Below are positions 1-26,771 of a DNA stretch of 27,415 nucleotides, piece by piece. Below the pieces are notes generated by a model, which was not told the origin of the DNA, made no database searches, and saw only the letters and a list, made by a program, of their open reading frames with translations. Numbering within the stretch: the first letter of the stretch is position 1; every line of letters starts with the position of its first letter. The translations under genes were made by a program, and so were the position numbers. Origin of the DNA: a virus; the IMG/VR virus record IMGVR_UViG_3300009149_006176, positions 1 through 27,415 of that record; one strand, given 5' to 3'.

Positions 1-74
1 CACCCTTTTGACACAGGACTCGAAGGACACCTAATCGCCATAGCAAACCTATAATCTGCAGCTTATGATATTAT

Positions 75-147
75 GGGCCGTTAGCTCAGTTGGCAGAGCA
101 CCTGACTTTTAATCAGGGTGTCGGGAGTTCGAGTCTCCCACGGCCTA
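75..147 (+). tRNA. tRNA-Lys (anticodon UUU)
   Basis: A complete cloverleaf can be folded by eye. The 7-bp acceptor stem (GGGCCGT with ACGGCCT, first pair G-T) is followed by TA, a D-arm, an anticodon stem CCTGA/TCAGG around loop CTTTTAA (anticodon TTT), and a T-arm GGGAG-TTCGAGT-CTCCC. The discriminator base is A147 and no CCA is encoded. A TATAAT box at 50-55 could serve as its -10, but I see no good -35. Its last three bases are shared with the stop codon of the minus-strand helix-turn-helix gene. It is either phage-borne or a host tRNA used as an integration site; the sequence does not settle which. Confidence 0.95.
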
Positions 148-348
148 TTTCCTGAGTCTTTCAACTTCATCCTCCGCTATTCTCCAATGTCCTTCAATGC
201 GCCTAGCTGATTTAGCCATCCTAGTATAAATCCAGCTGTAGATGGTCTGTCTAGGGATTTTGAATTTTTCACTAGCATCTCGAACCGATAAGAAAAGTTT
301 ATCAGAGCCCCAAAGTTTTGTCAAGTGCCTCTTTATTAGATTATTCAT
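145..348 (-). CDS. Excisionase-like helix-turn-helix DNA-binding protein (67 aa)
   Basis: A small MerR/excisionase-type winged helix-turn-helix (HTH_17-like). The core runs from about residue 20 to 66: LSVRDASEKFKIPRQTIYSW is the helix-turn-helix, followed by a basic wing (KSARRIEGHWRI) and the typical C-terminal EDEVERLRK helix. Such proteins bind DNA next to phage attachment sites or act as small regulators. Its TAG stop lies in the last bases of the convergent tRNA-Lys gene, the position expected of an excisionase beside a tRNA attachment site, but no integrase is present in the window. It has its own consensus promoter just upstream and only a very short leader. A second, shorter helix-turn-helix gene with the same C-terminal signature lies at 26239-26403. 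Confidence 0.75.
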   Translation of the reverse strand: MNNLIKRHLTKLWGSDKLFLSVRDASEKFKIPRQTIYSWIYTRMAKSARRIEGHWRIAEDEVERLRK

Positions 349-460: not shown

Positions 461-500
461 AAAAAAAATAGGGGGAGTCATATTTCTACAACTCCCCTTA
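461..500 (-). terminator. Intrinsic terminator of the structured RNA
   Basis: Read on the minus strand, TAAGGGGAGT (500-491) pairs with ACTCCCCCTA (478-469) across a 12-base loop. This 10-bp stem with one G-T pair is followed by a run of eight T (468-461), a textbook rho-independent terminator. It has no gene immediately upstream, which is why I assign it to the RNA. Confidence 0.92.
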
Positions 501-838
501 TTTGACCTCCTAAACTATCCTTTCGGAAGTACCCCACAGGTACATTCATTAAGGAGGAACCTTTCGCTTGCCTGAGCCTACTCCAACCCTTAACTTTGTA
601 TCTTTACCCATCTTGAATGTATACAAACCTCGGCTCAGGCTAGGAATTGCCCAACCATTCCCTATTTACCTTTCCGATAACATTGAAACCGTTAGCAAGG
701 CAATTCCCTACTTGCCAGCTAGGGACTTACACCCTAGATTGTCCTTCTGTTAGTCTAACCCTCATGGGTTATACTGAGGTCTTGGGCGAATTGTGCATTT
801 TTGCACAATCGCCTGCGTATTTTTCCGCCACTGGCAAG
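461..838 (-). ncRNA. Putative independent structured non-coding RNA, about 375 nt
   Basis: This stretch has no credible gene but has a promoter at one end, a terminator at the other, and nested inverted repeats throughout. The helices, in RNA order, are as follows. P1 is 838-831 with 718-711 (8 bp), enclosing a 12-bp hairpin with an AAAA loop (813-810/809-802 with 797-790/788-785), a 6-bp hairpin (771-766/761-756) and a 6-bp hairpin (737-732/724-719). P2 is 710-699 with 651-641 (11 bp, one bulge). P3 is 640-632 with 578-570 (9 bp), enclosing 627-621/601-595 (7 bp). P4 is 557-552 with 511-506 (6 bp), enclosing 543-539/533-529 and a GAAA-loop hairpin. Last comes the terminator hairpin. P1/P2 and P2/P3 are directly adjacent, as in coaxial stacks. 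I do not recognise a known family: it lacks a tRNA-like end pairing as in tmRNA, RNase P signatures, or group I core sequences. Large phage RNAs such as GOLLD or ROOL are a loose analogy only. Confidence 0.8.
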
Positions 839-840
839 TC

Positions 841-937
841 TTATTATATCATTGTTAAAGTAACTTATCAAATCACCTTGGTCCCGTTGGCATTTATTAT
901 TCATCCTATTGTTATTATATCATAGTTAAATAAACTT
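841..937 (-). repeat. Duplicated 26-bp promoter-like element
   Basis: Positions 841-866 and 912-937 match at 23 of 26 bases, 71 bases apart. Each copy carries ATGATATAATAA on the minus strand. The inner copy overlaps the -10 and spacer of the structured-RNA promoter. The outer copy has the same TATAAT but no recognisable -35 (GGGAAA). It may be a second weak start or a duplicated regulatory site. Confidence 0.65.
843..871 (-). promoter_or_regulatory. Promoter of the structured RNA
   Basis: On the minus strand TTGATA (871-866) is separated by exactly 17 bases from a perfect TATAAT (848-843). The predicted start at 838-835 coincides with the 5' strand of the first long-range helix, so the RNA would begin with its own P1 stem. 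No start codon with a ribosome-binding site follows. Confidence 0.75.
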
Positions 938-2539: not shown

Positions 2540-4897
2540 TTATACCTCCTTCAGCCGGCAAGTTATCCATATCTCCGTATTACGCCCAGACTCATCAATG
2601 TAGGCTCTCTGCTCTGTGCCTACTGGCTCAAATCTTGCGGTATACCAGGTATTATCGCACCCCATAATCTTGAAGGGGTTATTGGTTTTATTTAGCGTTT
2701 CTATTTCCTTAACAATGCTGGCTATTGTAGAGTGAGTTGTTATGCCAGAAGCATTTTGCAGGTTATCGCCAGCCCTAACTATCATCTCGATTGTTTTCTT
2801 CTTGGTTGATTCGTCTGCCATACTAGGCATAAGGCAGCAATCCACGGAATAACGCAAGAGGATAGGAGATAGCTTTTCCTCTGTCGTGGTCAGGTCGAAC
2901 TTGAACCAAACCCAGTCGCTAACAATGCCTATATCCTTCTTATCTGTTATCTCATCAGGATAGGTAAAGCTCCAGGGAGTTACTACAGAGGTATAATCGC
3001 CCTCAGTACAATAACCTAAACTTGTCCAATCGCTGTCTCCCCTTTTCTTATAAGAGACTTTAATCGTGGTTTTATCTTTGAAGTTCTGGCTGGTTACCAT
3101 TATATAATTCCAGAGCTTGTCCATTGTGGGGAAGTTAGTTCTGAGTTTAGGGGTGTAGAATGTTCCCGATGCCTCTACCTTGTGCCCCGATTCTTTTAAC
3201 ACATCGGAGTAAGAAACAGGGACTACAAAGTTGGGGATGCCGTCCGTGTAGGTGTTCGTGCCTAAGTATAATCGGTTATAACCACTAAGGTTTGAGATTA
3301 AGGCGCAGGTAACATCATTGCTGGTTTTCTCATATATCGGATGCCACACCCAAGTTGTGGCGCCACCGATTGTCTCCCAATGCCCCGCCAGAAGCTCATA
3401 TTTAGTGCCATTGTCTATTACAAGGTATAAATAACGGCTATCAGTTGTTAAGGCTAATAAACTACCGTCATGGTCTGTATCCCCCCTGGCATACTGCATT
3501 GGTGAGAGGTCTGTTACAATGCCATCATCATACTCATAGAGGGAATTAACCCCCGCAGGTATGTATATCCTGCCCTGCCAGATATAAAGACCGTAACTAT
3601 AGGTCGTGCTTGCCTCAGAACTTAATGCAGGGATTAAGGGATATACATTTGCGCCAGAGAGATAATATGTCTGGTCTTGCTTGCGAGCATAAACTACAGC
3701 ACTATCTTGATTGCTAAGTAAGCCCGTGATGCTGTAAGATGAGTTAGGTAGTGCATAGACAGTGGAGAACGCCCCCCCTCCGTTAATCGGGTTAGCACTA
3801 TCTCTCATTGTGTTAGCTGTGTCCGAAATCCAGAACTGCGTGTCCTGAACGTTAGACATATATTTAGCTGTAGTATCGTCTAGTGTGCAATGTATAAAGC
3901 TGGATAAATCAGAGGTGTAATAATATTTAACACCATAACCCAGTGCTATGTATAAGCGGTTTTGGTAAACACATAAGTCGGTGATGGTGGCAGGGAAGCC
4001 ATAGCAATATACCCAGCTACCAGCACTTAGTTTGTAAAGCATTTGCCCATAAGCTACGCATAAAGTTGAGCCAAAGTTAATTAGCTTTTTGGGTGCACCA
4101 GCGATATTACCATTAACAAGAGAAGTATCATCAAACCAAACATTTGTACCAGTGCCAAGATAACTAGCGCTATAATCAATAATTACCCGCAACACACTGG
4201 CGTTGCTTGCTAATTTTTTTTCTACCTGAATTTGTGTCCAGGTATTGGTTTGATGTTTTGCGCTGTAGGTTGTGCCTGCACCATCATATATACTAACTCT
4301 TACCCAATTATTTGCGTCACTCTCCCTTGCCACTTTAGCCCAAGCCTTGAAAATGAAAACTTTACCCTTATAAGCATCGTTCCACGTTAAGTTCTGGTAA
4401 ATCGAACCAGTAATAGTTGTCTCAGTGGCCACGTAAGCACCATAAGTTCCACTGTGTACTGTCCCAGTCCTCGTAACCCCACTGCCTGTTTCAGTCCAGC
4501 TTGTTAAATTAGTGGTGGTTGCCCAATCCTCTAGGTCAGCGTCAGTAATAGAAACACTAGGCGCACTGGCCTCAAGTGCCAGAGCCGTTAATTCCTTTGG
4601 GGATAGCATAAACCTGCCCTTGAACCTGCCATCGCAGTTAGCGGTCTTATAGTATTTCTTGGCAGTCTCAAAGACTTCGTCCTGAAAACCCCTTCTCCAG
4701 TCGTCAGCTTCTAATAAAATCTTGTCCTCTGGCGCCAGGTTAGAGTAAGAGGCTTCACCCGTAATCAGGGACATAGGTAGCATAGCCGTGTCCGTGACTT
4801 TCCAGTGCTTTTGCCCGCCCTCTGCTGCCAACATGAAGCCATGGGGCTTCCCTTTACTATCTACAATTTCTACATCGTGACTTTTCTTAAGAGACAT
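2540..4897 (-). CDS. Propeller-type tail protein with carbohydrate-binding-like domain (785 aa)
   Basis: The N-terminal 110 residues (including LAPEDKILLEADDWRRGFQD) form a platform of a kind seen in phage tail proteins. Residues about 115-265 look like a jelly-roll carbohydrate-binding module (LTSWTETGSGVTRTGTVHSG, ending NVWFDDTSL). Residues about 275-535 contain repeated beta-blade-like strands (LCVYQNRLYIALGYGVKYYY, YGLYIWQGRIYIP, SRYLYLVIDNGTKYELL), suggesting a beta-propeller. The C-terminal beta region ends RNTEIWITCRLKEV. The length is close to podovirus nozzle proteins (T7 gp12 is 794 aa), which also carry a propeller, but I claim no homology. I prefer the ATG at 4897 (GAGGG upstream); a GTG at 4909 would add four residues. 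It lies between two HNH genes. Confidence 0.72.
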   Translation of the reverse strand: MSLKKSHDVEIVDSKGKPHGFMLAAEGGQKHWKVTDTAMLPMSLITGEASYSNLAPEDKILLEADDWRRGFQDEVFETAKKYYKTANCDGRFKGRFMLSPKELTALALEASAPSVSITDADLEDWATTTNLTSWTETGSGVTRTGTVHSGTYGAYVATETTITGSIYQNLTWNDAYKGKVFIFKAWAKVARESDANNWVRVSIYDGAGTTYSAKHQTNTWTQIQVEKKLASNASVLRVIIDYSASYLGTGTNVWFDDTSLVNGNIAGAPKKLINFGSTLCVAYGQMLYKLSAGSWVYCYGFPATITDLCVYQNRLYIALGYGVKYYYTSDLSSFIHCTLDDTTAKYMSNVQDTQFWISDTANTMRDSANPINGGGAFSTVYALPNSSYSITGLLSNQDSAVVYARKQDQTYYLSGANVYPLIPALSSEASTTYSYGLYIWQGRIYIPAGVNSLYEYDDGIVTDLSPMQYARGDTDHDGSLLALTTDSRYLYLVIDNGTKYELLAGHWETIGGATTWVWHPIYEKTSNDVTCALISNLSGYNRLYLGTNTYTDGIPNFVVPVSYSDVLKESGHKVEASGTFYTPKLRTNFPTMDKLWNYIMVTSQNFKDKTTIKVSYKKRGDSDWTSLGYCTEGDYTSVVTPWSFTYPDEITDKKDIGIVSDWVWFKFDLTTTEEKLSPILLRYSVDCCLMPSMADESTKKKTIEMIVRAGDNLQNASGITTHSTIASIVKEIETLNKTNNPFKIMGCDNTWYTARFEPVGTEQRAYIDESGRNTEIWITCRLKEV

Positions 4898-5474
4898 TGC
4901 AGCCCTCACTCAAATATTCTTTCAGTTGCCATTGCAATAATTTCATTTCTTGCTTTAATTCTTTAATTTGAGCATCCCTACCATCTATTAAGCCTTGTTG
5001 ATAGCCATCCTTATAGCCCTTATTGTGCTCTACAATATGGCTACCAAGAGTAGTTAATTCTAGATTCTCAATTCTATTGTCATCCTTGACACCATTCTTG
5101 TGATGAACCACTTCCCAGGGCTGCAGACATCTACCTAAATGCTTTGCCATAACCAAGCGATGCTCGAAAACATACCCATCCCTGGCTGCCATAGGATAAA
5201 AGAAATCATCTGGTAAAAGTTTGATTCCAATATATCCGCCGTCCCTTGTTTTCCCACCTCGCCAATGGGGGCTATTCTCTCCTGTCATCCGTGCCTTAGG
5301 AAGCTTTCCTACTTGTGAGCCAGAACAATGTGGGCAGGTTTTGCTACTTGGCTTTCCTTTAATTAGCCTTACCCACCTCTCTTTGCCACAAGTTTCACAA
5401 GCAATCCAGATATATTTACTATAAGGGAATAAGCCCAGTTCCTTACTATTAACAATATCACCTATCTTGGGCAT
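4887..5474 (-). CDS. HNH homing-type endonuclease with N-terminal zinc ribbon (195 aa)
   Basis: The layout matches the HNH gene at 1967-2539: zinc ribbon (C26-x2-C29, C47-x2-C50), a WRGGKTRDGGYIGIK segment, then EHRLVMAKHLGRCLQPWEVV, with H124-H125 and the DDNRIENLEL motif. The C-terminus is a coiled coil (about residues 155-188). The strong conservation of the EHRL to IENL block against its paralogue shows a recent common ancestor. It overlaps the start of the propeller tail gene and probably couples to it. It likely acts as a selfish nicking or cutting enzyme rather than a virion component; role inferred from the family. Confidence 0.88.
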   Translation of the reverse strand: MPKIGDIVNSKELGLFPYSKYIWIACETCGKERWVRLIKGKPSSKTCPHCSGSQVGKLPKARMTGENSPHWRGGKTRDGGYIGIKLLPDDFFYPMAARDGYVFEHRLVMAKHLGRCLQPWEVVHHKNGVKDDNRIENLELTTLGSHIVEHNKGYKDGYQQGLIDGRDAQIKELKQEMKLLQWQLKEYLSEGCNVS

Positions 5475-6800: not shown

Positions 6801-7100
6801 TTATCCTATCTTTTTCTCCACAGTGAAGTTAATTGTGCCTTCTTTGTTGATGTCGCTTCCGTTAGTGAAAGTTGCCTGAGCGGTGTAAACTCCTGTCTTG
6901 GCTGCGGCATCTATGGCGTAGCCGTATTGGTATTTGCCAGTAGTCCCTGTGCCTGGCAAAGCGGTTGTAGCAGCTATCACGACCTGTCCAGAGGAATCTT
7001 CAATGGCTATCTTTGCCGATGTAGTGGCATCAACTAAAGCTCCGCTATCACGGTGTTCGAAATAGAGACTGACTACCTCTCCAGTATAATATTGTTCCAT
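6801..7100 (-). CDS. Small Ig-like beta-sandwich virion protein (99 aa)
   Basis: Alternating hydrophobic/polar strands (EVVSLYFEHRDSGALVDATT, AKIAIEDSSGQVVIAATTAL, YTAQATFTNGSDINKEGTIN, ending FTVEKKIG) describe a single Ig-like or BppU-type beta-sandwich with no signal peptide. Such domains decorate tails, baseplates and fibres. Its ATG overlaps the TAA of the adhesin gene, with GGAG upstream, so the two are translationally coupled. This suggests it is an adhesin partner or connector. Confidence 0.55.
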   Translation of the reverse strand: MEQYYTGEVVSLYFEHRDSGALVDATTSAKIAIEDSSGQVVIAATTALPGTGTTGKYQYGYAIDAAAKTGVYTAQATFTNGSDINKEGTINFTVEKKIG

Positions 7101-9976
7101 TATTTTGCTTCTCCTGTAACATCAAATTTGCGTGTTGCCTTGCCCGTAACTGTATATCTGTGTCTCGCTTCCATTATAACTTCATACTTGCGATTAGCCT
7201 GGCTTTTAACAGTATATTTGTGCCGAGTGAACCCCAAAATATCATAAGCTCGCCGTGCCCAACCTTTAACACTGGTATGGAAAAGATTAGTCCAAGCACC
7301 ACTAACTTTGATTCCCATCTTAACTGTGGTTTCTCTTATGCGAGTTAGAGAGACAATAGTTTTTATTCCCACCTTGACTGTAGCAGTGCGGAGAAGAGTC
7401 CTGAGTCTAGTTGCTGTGACTTTCACCCCCACCTTAACCGTAGCAGTCCGAATAAGAGAACGAAGCCTCGTGGAAGTAACCTTCACCCCAATCTTGACTG
7501 TAGTGGTTCGGATAAAAGAACTGAGCTTAGTAGCACTAACCTTGACTCCGACTTTTACTGTGGTGGTTTGAAAGAAGATTTTGAACTTGATTGCTGTTAC
7601 TTTAGTGCCTACTTTAATAGTGGTGCTTCTTATGCGGGTCAGGGAAACAGTAACCTTTGTTCCAACTTTAACAGTAGCAGAGCGAATAAAAGAACAATGC
7701 CTTGAAGATGTAACTTTGGCACCAACCTTAACCGTTGCAATTCGTATAGTTTCTTGCACCCCCCAAACTCCCCAAGTTGGCTCTGGGTCAGCATACTTCG
7801 CCATAAAGATATAATCAAAATAAATATCCTCAGTTCGAGCACTTGTAATCCTTACACTTGTAAAGGCGGGAAGCCAATCATAGGTGTCAGTATCTACTGA
7901 TATTCCATCTACTAGATATATCCAAAGCCCCGCAGCATTTTTGGTAGCTTCTAGACTATGCCAATCAGTGTCTGGCACAATATCTACAGAAGCCAAACTT
8001 ACTATAGTCTCGCCATTCCTTAAATAGAAGCGAACAAAACCAGCTTGTTCTAGATACTGCACAAAGACATAATAGGTAGCACTTTGATAAACAATATAGT
8101 CGTAGCATTGACCGCTAGGAGCTGTGCCGCCTGTCTGCAACCGCTGTCTAACAATCCATCTGAAAGCATCTCCAATGATACTTCCATAATCCCTATGAAG
8201 CGTATCACCATTCTTAACTGTTAGAATACCATCTGACACGCTTGGAGTTCCTGCATCAGTAGTCCAATCAGCAATACTATCAAAATCCTCAAAGAAATCA
8301 GGAAAAGTGTTTGCTCCGTTACTTCCTGACTCAGCATCCGCTTTACCATAGTAAATATAGAAAGTGGCTGAATCTGGGTCAGCAGGAATGCTATCAAATT
8401 CTACCCAGTAAGTAGCTTTATCCATTCCCTGGATTATTGTCTTTACAATGTTGTCGCTACCTGCGGGATTCCCTCTTTCGGCAAACCACATCACATCTTC
8501 ATTTGGCTCTTTTCCTAATCCCTGAATGTTATCTACTGCAATGGGTATAGTGTAAGTATCGATTAGCTCAAATTCAGAACCCGTCCAGTGATAACAACGA
8601 CATTCTTTTGCAGTATGTCTAGTTACATAGATATAATCGTTTAACCAGCAAATCCCCTGATTGTATGCTGAATATCTTAAAGGATAATCAGCTTGATGCT
8701 CCCAACTTGTGTTGTATTTAGAAACATAATTGTAATCATGATAGACAACCCACCAAGCATCATCGTAATAGGCACAGCCCTCACACCAGTGGTCTAAAAC
8801 TTGATGCTCTTCCACATAAGATAAATCACTACAGTTGAAGACCTTGATGTATCCTACTGGAGGCGTTGCATTATAGTTATTTGCTCCGAGATATAACTTA
8901 TCTCCATGAACATGAAGAGAGTTGACTTGCGCCATATCTGTGCCATCAGTATTAGCGTGGTCATTGCTGGTAACTAAAGTTCCATTCTTCTGGCGTTTCT
9001 GAATTACGCCTGACGAACAGGTATAGAGGTATGCCCCATCTGAGGCGACACCTTGGGTAGCATGCATATCACTCAGTCTGCTATCAAAGGAGAAGGAGGA
9101 GGCAAAATCTCCGTTATTAAGTAAAGTCTCATAGTAGAGTATAATCTCATTCAACTGGCAGTAATTATCACTACCGTATGTGCTAGTAACATATACCCTG
9201 TAGTATCTATAAGCAATAGAATTACTGAGTAGCCATTCCTGCCAATCTGGAGTATTAGCAGCAGTAGTCGATAGGATGTCAGTCCAGTCAGAATCATTGT
9301 TTGAACCTTGTAGTATGAAGGCATTGACCGTGCTACCAGTTCCCCTATCACGAGCTTGGAAACGGAGCTTCTTGGTAACTCGTGTTATGCCTTCACCTAG
9401 GTCATACTTCACCCAGTGTGGAAACGCTGTGTTTGTGCTTGACCAATAGATGGGTCCCTTATCAAAAGCCTTGGCAGCATTACGAGCCTCATCATATTCA
9501 GAATCAGCACTTGCTATCCCATCAAAAAGAAAATCAACATATACAGTAACACTTTGTCTTTCTCGCCAAGGGTCTAAAAGGGATATACCATCAGCTTTAG
9601 TAAAGCGAACATCATTGAAGTCATCACGACAATGATTACTGAGATAGACAACATCTTCAAGGTCAGCACCAACTCCCCTATGAACAGTTAATTTCTTCTG
9701 GTAGTTAATGTGCCTACAGTCATAGGTTTCCCCAGAGGTGGTAGAACCTGGATAGACTATACTGATTGCTAAATGAGTAGCATCAGTTACGCCTTCTATG
9801 GTATACCAATTATCATCTGGCAGTTGAATCTGGTCTCCAACTGCCCATTCCAAAAAAGCAGTGCCATCGCCAACAACATCTTTTGAAGCCTCGGTAACTG
9901 CTATAGTGCCAGCAATAGAACCAGCACCATTGATGGTTATTTGTTTGCGATAGTTATATCCTGATAGCCAAGCCAT
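7100..9976 (-). CDS. Multidomain adhesin/receptor-binding tail protein with DUF2341 and discoidin-like domains (958 aa)
   Basis: I start at the ATG at 9976 because GAGGAG lies 6-7 bases upstream. DUF2341 begins at residues 1-15 (WLSGYNYRKQITI) and 85-137 (FNDVRFTKADGISLLDPWRE) and resumes at about 515-570 (ATYWVEFDSIPADPDSATFY, then IYYGKADAES). Between the halves are an F5/8 type C (discoidin) domain (about 150-282, FPHWVKYDLGEGITRVTKKL ... YYRVYV) and a propeller-like region (about 295-510). A concanavalin/LamG-like sandwich follows (about 565-745). Then come eight basic repeats of 18-20 residues (747-895, consensus TVKVGxKVT) and a tail of shorter RKYxV/RHRYTV repeats. These sugar- and surface-binding modules point to host attachment. 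An in-frame hydrophobic extension upstream is listed separately. Confidence 0.8.
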   Translation of the reverse strand: MAWLSGYNYRKQITINGAGSIAGTIAVTEASKDVVGDGTAFLEWAVGDQIQLPDDNWYTIEGVTDATHLAISIVYPGSTTSGETYDCRHINYQKKLTVHRGVGADLEDVVYLSNHCRDDFNDVRFTKADGISLLDPWRERQSVTVYVDFLFDGIASADSEYDEARNAAKAFDKGPIYWSSTNTAFPHWVKYDLGEGITRVTKKLRFQARDRGTGSTVNAFILQGSNNDSDWTDILSTTAANTPDWQEWLLSNSIAYRYYRVYVTSTYGSDNYCQLNEIILYYETLLNNGDFASSFSFDSRLSDMHATQGVASDGAYLYTCSSGVIQKRQKNGTLVTSNDHANTDGTDMAQVNSLHVHGDKLYLGANNYNATPPVGYIKVFNCSDLSYVEEHQVLDHWCEGCAYYDDAWWVVYHDYNYVSKYNTSWEHQADYPLRYSAYNQGICWLNDYIYVTRHTAKECRCYHWTGSEFELIDTYTIPIAVDNIQGLGKEPNEDVMWFAERGNPAGSDNIVKTIIQGMDKATYWVEFDSIPADPDSATFYIYYGKADAESGSNGANTFPDFFEDFDSIADWTTDAGTPSVSDGILTVKNGDTLHRDYGSIIGDAFRWIVRQRLQTGGTAPSGQCYDYIVYQSATYYVFVQYLEQAGFVRFYLRNGETIVSLASVDIVPDTDWHSLEATKNAAGLWIYLVDGISVDTDTYDWLPAFTSVRITSARTEDIYFDYIFMAKYADPEPTWGVWGVQETIRIATVKVGAKVTSSRHCSFIRSATVKVGTKVTVSLTRIRSTTIKVGTKVTAIKFKIFFQTTTVKVGVKVSATKLSSFIRTTTVKIGVKVTSTRLRSLIRTATVKVGVKVTATRLRTLLRTATVKVGIKTIVSLTRIRETTVKMGIKVSGAWTNLFHTSVKGWARRAYDILGFTRHKYTVKSQANRKYEVIMEARHRYTVTGKATRKFDVTGEAK
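7292..7738 (-). repeat. Coding tandem repeat, eight units of 54-60 bp
   Basis: Eight consecutive units encode variants of ATVKVGxKVTxxxxxxxIRT: six full units of 20 or 18 residues are easy to align, a seventh of 18 residues is the same length as the second (both contain VSLTRIR), and the eighth is truncated at VSGAW. The units are strongly basic and carry no acidic residue except E in the seventh. A second short-period array (about 10 residues: HKYTVKSQANR, KYEVIMEARH, RYTVTGKATR, KFDVTGEAK) follows before the stop. Confidence 0.85.
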
Positions 9977-10078
9977 AGTTTTCTCCTCGTGAATTATTGG
10001 GAGGCAAGATGTAGCTAATAATACAAGGCATATCAGAATTAGATTGCCTTTGCGAATCATGCCAATAGTATAACCCAA
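9977..10078 (-). other. In-frame signal-peptide-like extension upstream of the adhesin gene
   Basis: The adhesin reading frame stays open for 34 codons above its preferred start. The extension reads MIRKGNLILICLVLLATSCL from an ATG at 10060: a basic N-terminus, a hydrophobic core and ATSC, a poor-to-fair lipobox. There is no ribosome-binding site, but TATACT lies six bases before this ATG. It may be a relic of a secreted ancestor, an alternative start or chance. Confidence 0.35.
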
Positions 10079-26742: not shown

Positions 26743-26771
26743 TGAGGTTGAGAGATTAAAGAAGATAAGGG
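26743..26771 (+). repeat. Stray copy of the 3' end of the helix-turn-helix gene
   Basis: 28 of 29 bases match 26361-26389, the stretch encoding EVERLKKIR. It lies 8 bases after the stop of the 109-residue gene and is not in a usable gene. It looks like the remnant of a duplicated helix-turn-helix gene, or a short recombination tract. Confidence 0.7.

Follow-up and report, generated by a model that had tools for sequence, protein, structure and literature searches.

A modular structured RNA family of phages with a member set between a promoter and a terminator beside a probable tRNA-Lys attachment site

Introduction

Near the left end of a virus record taken to be a prophage (IMG/VR IMGVR_UViG_3300009149_006176; the window hereafter, that is, the whole stretch of 27,415 nt, 27.4 kb, that was analysed), a gene-free region raises the question of whether it encodes an RNA, from which strand, to which family such an RNA belongs and what it might do. 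The region lies between two minus-strand genes, a small HTH gene that is excisionase-like (348-145) and the last small late gene (1253-972). The tRNA-Lys gene at the end of the window is a likely attachment site, because part of this tRNA recurs, as an attP-like piece, next to a tyrosine integrase in a related phage of 44,975 bp (G001). The G001 piece, on the opposite strand, adjoins the integrase gene (L026:2587-2628 and 2662-3483, respectively) and is probably attP, near the G001 copy of the RNA. The features of the locus are as follows.

74 to 148, plus strand: tRNA-Lys(TTT), at the left end of the window
461 to 838, minus strand: the whole RNA, about 375 nt, non-coding, 5' end about 838 and 3' end about 461; fold z -5.6 to -6.4
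843 to 871, minus strand: sigma-70-type promoter TTGATA-17-TATAAT, 11 of 12 positions matching, TG before the -10, from a sequence scan
711 to 838, minus strand: module A, with an 8-bp closing helix CUUGCCAG/CUGGCAAG, a UG...AG signature and a tRNA-like cloverleaf interior
815 to 828, minus strand: D-arm-like small hairpin GCG...CGC of module A, from the fold
785 to 813, minus strand: 12-bp hairpin of module A, from the fold; its sequence is not conserved by relatives
757 to 770, minus strand: hairpin AACCC-AUGA-GGGUU of module A, from the fold
719 to 737, minus strand: T-arm-like hairpin (CUAGGG-UGUAAGU-CCCUAG), whose 7-nt loop is of the T-loop type, stacked directly on the closing helix
642 to 710, minus strand: second module, occupying the position of B and closed by GGGAAUUGCC/GGCAAUUCC, from the fold; its sequence differs from the B consensus of relatives
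570 to 640, minus strand: module C, GCCUGAGCC-GAGG ... GUA-GGCUCAGGC, common to 12 other records
506 to 557, minus strand: fourth helix CCUCC...GGAGG with two inner hairpins, from the fold; a close counterpart was not found in relatives
466 to 503, minus strand: intrinsic terminator, 11-bp stem core at 497-472, then a U-run

Promoter, terminator and fold

An earlier note on this DNA had described a highly structured RNA with directly adjacent long helices, bounded by its own promoter and intrinsic terminator, and all of these parts were recovered. The promoter-like site is present on the minus strand at 871-843, the 11-bp stem and U-run of the terminator at 497-472, and the adjacent long helices were found in the fold of the minus-strand segment 440-860 (838/711, 710/642, 640/570 and 557/506, followed by the terminator). 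This segment folded at -144.8 kcal/mol, compared with -109.9 ± 5.4 kcal/mol for 100 dinucleotide shuffles (z = -6.4, with 0 of 100 as good), and the exact segment 461-838 gave a z of -5.6. The start expected from the promoter (about 836-838) lies no more than 2-3 nt from position 838, where the first helix begins. Promoter-like matches in this stretch numbered 6, against 4.4 ± 2.0 in shuffles, which is not above chance. The plus strand folded almost equally well by z (-6.3), so that the strand cannot be chosen from fold energy alone. Both the strand and the reality of the RNA are settled by the homologues, and not by the fold or promoter scans.

Two observations concern the neighbouring sequence. 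A strong promoter-like TTGACA-17-TATACT lies at 392-364 on the minus strand, before the HTH gene and downstream of the terminator of the RNA. A second copy of the leader and -10 sequence TTTAAC(T/A)ATGATATAATAA (TTTAACTATGATATAATAA) was found at 912-930 on the minus strand, 71 bp upstream of the copy at 841-859 and without a good -35; the pattern has 2 matches where 0.06 were expected. Ahead of module A, four relatives (L031, L036, L037 and L038) have a related leader, TAACAAYTGAATA, as do L045 and L047 in altered form; in L046 this leader occurs inside the element.

Search for relatives

Homologues were found in at least 13 environmental phage records besides the window, partly through terminase relatives and partly by scanning IMG/VR for exact patterns, for which three anchors were used in turn. 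As single queries, the tail protein and the terminase gave no or few relatives, and a two-row terminase alignment led to 13 related loci. Among these, G001 showed weak collinear blastn pieces to the RNA and proved to carry a genuine relative in the corresponding place, flanked by the last late genes on one side and attP/integrase on the other, with the sequence CTTGCCAGTGGCG ... CTAGGG ... CCCTAGCTGGCAAG. This member was reached via shared phage genes and is independent of the RNA pattern. A gapped pattern from the window and G001 yielded L031, which has the third helix of the window (AGCCTGAGCCGAGG ... AGTAGGCTCAGGC); this helix as an anchor yielded L036-L039, and its relaxed form L040-L042 and L044-L047. 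The pattern matches in L030, L032, L033, L034, L043 and L013 were judged to be due to chance on inspection, most of them lying apparently within coding sequence. An exact 27-mer of the RNA had no match in viral contigs, blastn of the RNA against INPHARED phages gave none, blastn of the relatives gave chance-level short matches only (none in plasmids), and a pattern search of genome-species contigs returned chance matches only.

Modular architecture

The RNA of the window and its relatives almost certainly form a real structured RNA family. Each module consists of a conserved closing helix of 8-10 bp and a highly variable domain, and the modules stand in a row, directly adjacent to one another. 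The usual order is A-B-C-D (L036, L037, L038, L040 and L047). The smallest form, in G001, is module A plus a terminator-like hairpin only (about 200 nt), L031 and L042 have modules A and C, and G019 has the order A-B-B-C-D-D in 503 nt. In L045 module C is doubled, in L044 it is accompanied by D-type modules, in L039 it is near a terminator-like hairpin that lies downstream, and in L046 it comes first, followed by A and B and a terminator-like hairpin at the end (about 560 nt). The members measured cover about 200-503 nt, and L046 about 560 nt. Membership of a modular family, the simpler form made of module A and a terminator, and the tRNA-likeness of module A in a subset of members are features that go beyond the earlier note.

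A covariance model of module C (R1) gave an E value of 4e-21 for the window, whose own sequence is in the model, and found one match per record, with two in L045. The same model had no match in G001, G003, G007, G009, G010 and G011, and thus the element is accessory; a match in G008 (E = 0.06) was not credible. At the inner end of the helix, 15 of 19 A and D modules, including the window, show a UG/AG signature (UG after the 5' strand, AG before the 3' strand) despite domains of 56-169 nt, so that A and D are one module type by this measure. Conserved bases combined with hypervariable interiors suggest that a shared function is carried by the bases of the modules and their junctions. Folds that were weak relative to shuffles were obtained in some members (L042, z = -0.9; L045, z = -0.8; L047, z = -1.5).

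Covariation

Five members with the order A-B-C-D were aligned by MAFFT without guidance and folded by RNAalifold. The consensus contained exactly four long-range helices, one closing each of the modules A to D, and 89.1% of the cells pair in this structure, compared with 24-44% when the partner was slid by 1-3 columns. Nine pairs change on both sides, a number reached by 0 of 500 shuffles; an alignment of five is small, and relatedness by itself can lift an alignment above its shuffles even where there is no structure. Compensatory changes in module A extend across 11 members, where 7 of the 8 pairs of the closing helix change on both sides and cognate pairing exceeds reassigned pairing (p = 5e-5). 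In the closing helix of D (7 members) the corresponding figures are 6 of 9 pairs and p = 5e-4, and module B alone gave weak covariation (p = 0.08). This cognate-strand test is weaker than the RNAalifold and shuffle test, since the strands were read from folds, which favours pairing, and the core of module C cannot show covariation because its helix was fixed by the search pattern. The family, its structure and its modularity, as well as the orientation described below, are shown by computation. The check for homologues and covariation proposed in the earlier note was thereby answered in its favour, homologues with compensatory changes being at hand.

Strand and transcription units

In 12 of 12 members tested, more of the surrounding ORF sequence is on the strand of the element than on the opposite one, whereas the z-scores of the two strands did not separate them. 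The promoter of G001 (TTGACA-17-TAGAAT) stands in the same arrangement to the first helix as that of the window, with the expected start at this helix. The window, L046 and G001 each have a terminator-like hairpin after the RNA; that of G001, with a U-run, comes after the first domain and was missing from the terminator scan list, probably because the loop is too large for that scan. From these sequence signals, the RNA of the window and that of G001 look like a discrete transcript beside a probable tRNA-Lys attachment site. The absence of any Rfam match, the compensatory changes among homologues and the common promoter-to-helix layout of G001 support the proposal of an undescribed, discrete structured RNA.

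The possibility that the conserved feature is DNA, such as a replication origin or a packaging or recombination site with hairpins acting in single-stranded form, was considered because several phages carry the element near genes for single-strand annealing, nuclease and ATPase functions and both strands fold well. It is very improbable, given that the orientation tracks transcription in 12 of 12 members and that the copy in the window is flanked by a promoter and a terminator. The helices that close A, B and D also contain more G-U than A-C (8 versus 3), a weak excess in the direction of RNA.

Most relatives have no evident promoter, and the RNA lies inside an early operon on the coding strand, which counts against a discrete RNA acting in trans and would be compatible with a cis role in those phages. 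The RNA could accordingly be an intercistronic structure for the processing, stability or translation of its neighbours that later became separate in the window and in G001, each time with a promoter of its own. The position between early-operon genes in L031, L036, L037, L038 and L040, in several of them near the next ribosome binding site, is consistent with this, and a tRNA-like module A (window, G001 and L031) could be cut by tRNA-processing enzymes. Such a cis element is nevertheless unlikely as the general explanation: the downstream genes vary between phages, up to six modules would be unusual, and the copies in the window and G001 come with a separate promoter, a 3' end that is terminator-like and a predicted transcript that contains no gene.

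tRNA-like features of module A

Three members (the window, G001 and L031) have a module A with a cloverleaf-like topology, composed of the closing helix, UG, a D-arm-like hairpin, more hairpins and a T-loop-type hairpin that stacks without a gap on the closing helix. At the sequence level, the loop of this hairpin follows the 7-nt form U-N-N-A-A-N-U closed by G-C (UGUAAGU in the window and UGCAAAU in L031). The hairpin is kept in G001 (with an insert of 7 nt in the loop), in L031 and, with a changed stem, in L046, where the loop is UUUAAGU and the hairpin is not directly stacked on the closing helix. At the position of the D-arm-like hairpin, L031 has GGCGAAATAGGTAGCCGC, which we take to be close to a common tRNA-Leu D-arm.

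These likenesses raise the possibility that module A is a former tRNA-Leu-like gene, kept as a mimic or degenerate tRNA that is a decoy for tRNA-targeting enzymes, the other modules being accessory. The T-loop-type loop on a stacked stem, the UG linker and the GGCG start of the D-arm-like hairpin in the window, G001 and L031 argue for it, as do GGCGGAAGAGAGACGC in L037 and the T-loop hairpin of L046. The same modules differ from tRNA-Leu and from tRNA-like structures in several respects: neither ARAGORN in its normal mode nor the Rfam tRNA model (RF00005) recognised a tRNA in module A, the window has neither a CCA after the closing helix nor a 7-nt anticodon loop or clear anticodon arm, and the stack in the window has 8+6 bp instead of the 7+5 bp of a normal tRNA. 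With relaxed settings, ARAGORN called numerous spurious tRNAs, and these calls were left out of the evidence. In addition, a covariance model built from module A of the window, G001 and L031 (R2) found no further member, which indicates that most members are without the tRNA-like form; in G001, R2 also gave a match of low score (2786-2849, E = 0.08), which was attributed to chance. The tRNA origin is quite improbable as an account of the family.

Comparison with known RNAs

Rfam 15 scans of the window and 12 other loci gave no match at the gathering score except tRNA-Lys. For the RNA itself, for which a scan had been proposed, none of 4227 models reached the gathering threshold and none was credible at E values up to 10. 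Scans with permissive thresholds, applied to the RNA of the window, L031, G001 and G019, returned chance-level matches or none, with only E values of 1 or worse for the region in the window. Among open-licence papers, no description of the family was found beyond the papers on ROOL and GOLLD.

ROOL and GOLLD are large structured phage or prophage RNAs found near tRNAs, ROOL often near tRNA islands, whose function is unknown (PMC12286853). The ROOL solved in that work has 659 nt, and GOLLD, made of a conserved and a variable part, is reported to rise during lysis (PMC12286853). By analogy, these RNAs appear nearest to the present family in kind, and not in sequence or model score. Like ROOL, the family is large, structured, phage- or prophage-borne and without a known protein, with a tRNA close by in the window; unlike ROOL, it has repeatable and permutable modules without an Rfam match, some members have one or two modules, and the members measured have about 200-503 nt. 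With GOLLD it shares the phage location, the structure, the conserved and variable parts and, in the window, the position near a tRNA, but it is shorter, has no Rfam match and carries its conserved parts at the base of every module, whereas those of GOLLD form one 3' region. A phage location applies to all members; a tRNA close by was seen in the window alone, where it is the probable attachment site, and no tRNA genes occurred in the scanned stretches of the relatives.

The analogy suggests an RNA-only assembly of the ROOL or GOLLD sort, that is, a homo-oligomeric particle in which the conserved helix bases would be intermolecular contacts and the variable arms would point outward or inward. 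Size, phage location and the tRNA-adjacent position in the window are shared with ROOL and GOLLD (PMC12286853). Strongly conserved helix bases and junctions with hypervariable interiors would fit assembly contacts. This assembly is a doubtful explanation, as no member scanned matched ROOL or GOLLD in Rfam, and the loss, doubling and permutation of modules are hard to square with one fixed quaternary structure.

A likeness in the way of working only is offered by the sponge RNAs of the CsrB/CsrC type, which are built from repeated binding units, short GGA hairpins, in a number that varies between members. The present family likewise has repeated units whose number varies between members, but these are helical domains of 56-169 nt and not short GGA hairpins.

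Possible function

The best explanation overall, to which a probability of about 0.5 is assigned, is that of an undescribed modular phage RNA family acting in trans as a multivalent RNA, most likely as a decoy. We infer both the transcription and the multivalency of the RNA. The RNA of the window would probably be transcribed alone from its own promoter beside the attachment site and stop at its own terminator, each module would be an independent binding unit, and the RNA would act in trans as a multivalent platform. Modules that are gained, lost and rearranged while their bases stay the same are easier to understand as separate binding units than as parts of one rigid machine. Together with the promoters that the window and G001 have next to the attachment site, this favours a multivalent RNA acting in trans, for which a decoy is the simplest role. 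Such a decoy (sponge) would most likely titrate a host RNA-binding factor or an RNA-targeting defence protein, in lysogeny or early infection; the promoters of the window and G001 would permit expression in a prophage, and elsewhere the RNA would come with the early genes. The decoy role itself is tentative, rated below even odds, and is speculative, as is the partner, multivalency being the one feature that points to it. A broader proposal, which falls somewhat short of an even chance, is that of a new class of phage RNA machines with interchangeable modules A-D and a tRNA-like head in one branch, which might either disarm or recruit a host RNA-binding system in a multivalent manner or form an RNA particle, and whose modules would evolve by duplication and shuffling in the way of protein domains.

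Large structured phage RNAs of unknown function, such as GOLLD and ROOL, are few, and the family adds an unrelated one with covariation support. The short natural version in G001 (about 200 nt) offers a compact entry to studies of structure and phenotype and to pull-down experiments. Duplication and rearrangement by modules are seldom seen in a structured RNA, and they turn the number of modules into a natural variable.

Other observations

Several further features were observed around the RNA and in the window. A protein family of unknown function (about 220-250 aa) is encoded just upstream of the RNA in L038 (5124-5867) and L040 (7511-8308) and three genes upstream of it in L031 (1025-1684). 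The window has two HNH_3 endonuclease genes on the minus strand (1967-2539 and 4887-5474), on either side of a large tail-region gene (2540-4909), and a homologue that is 50-57% identical lies immediately downstream of the RNA in L042 (11216-11674). A protein of 992 aa, encoded at 7100-10078 on the minus strand, combines discoidin-like (F5/F8 type C) and DUF2341 domains with a run of TVKVGxKVT-like repeats near its C-terminus. Finally, a 29-bp stretch of the window (26743-26771) recurs off the collinear register near the end of a contig that is otherwise 99.97% identical to the window (L003, 68-96), which suggests a repeat in that region.
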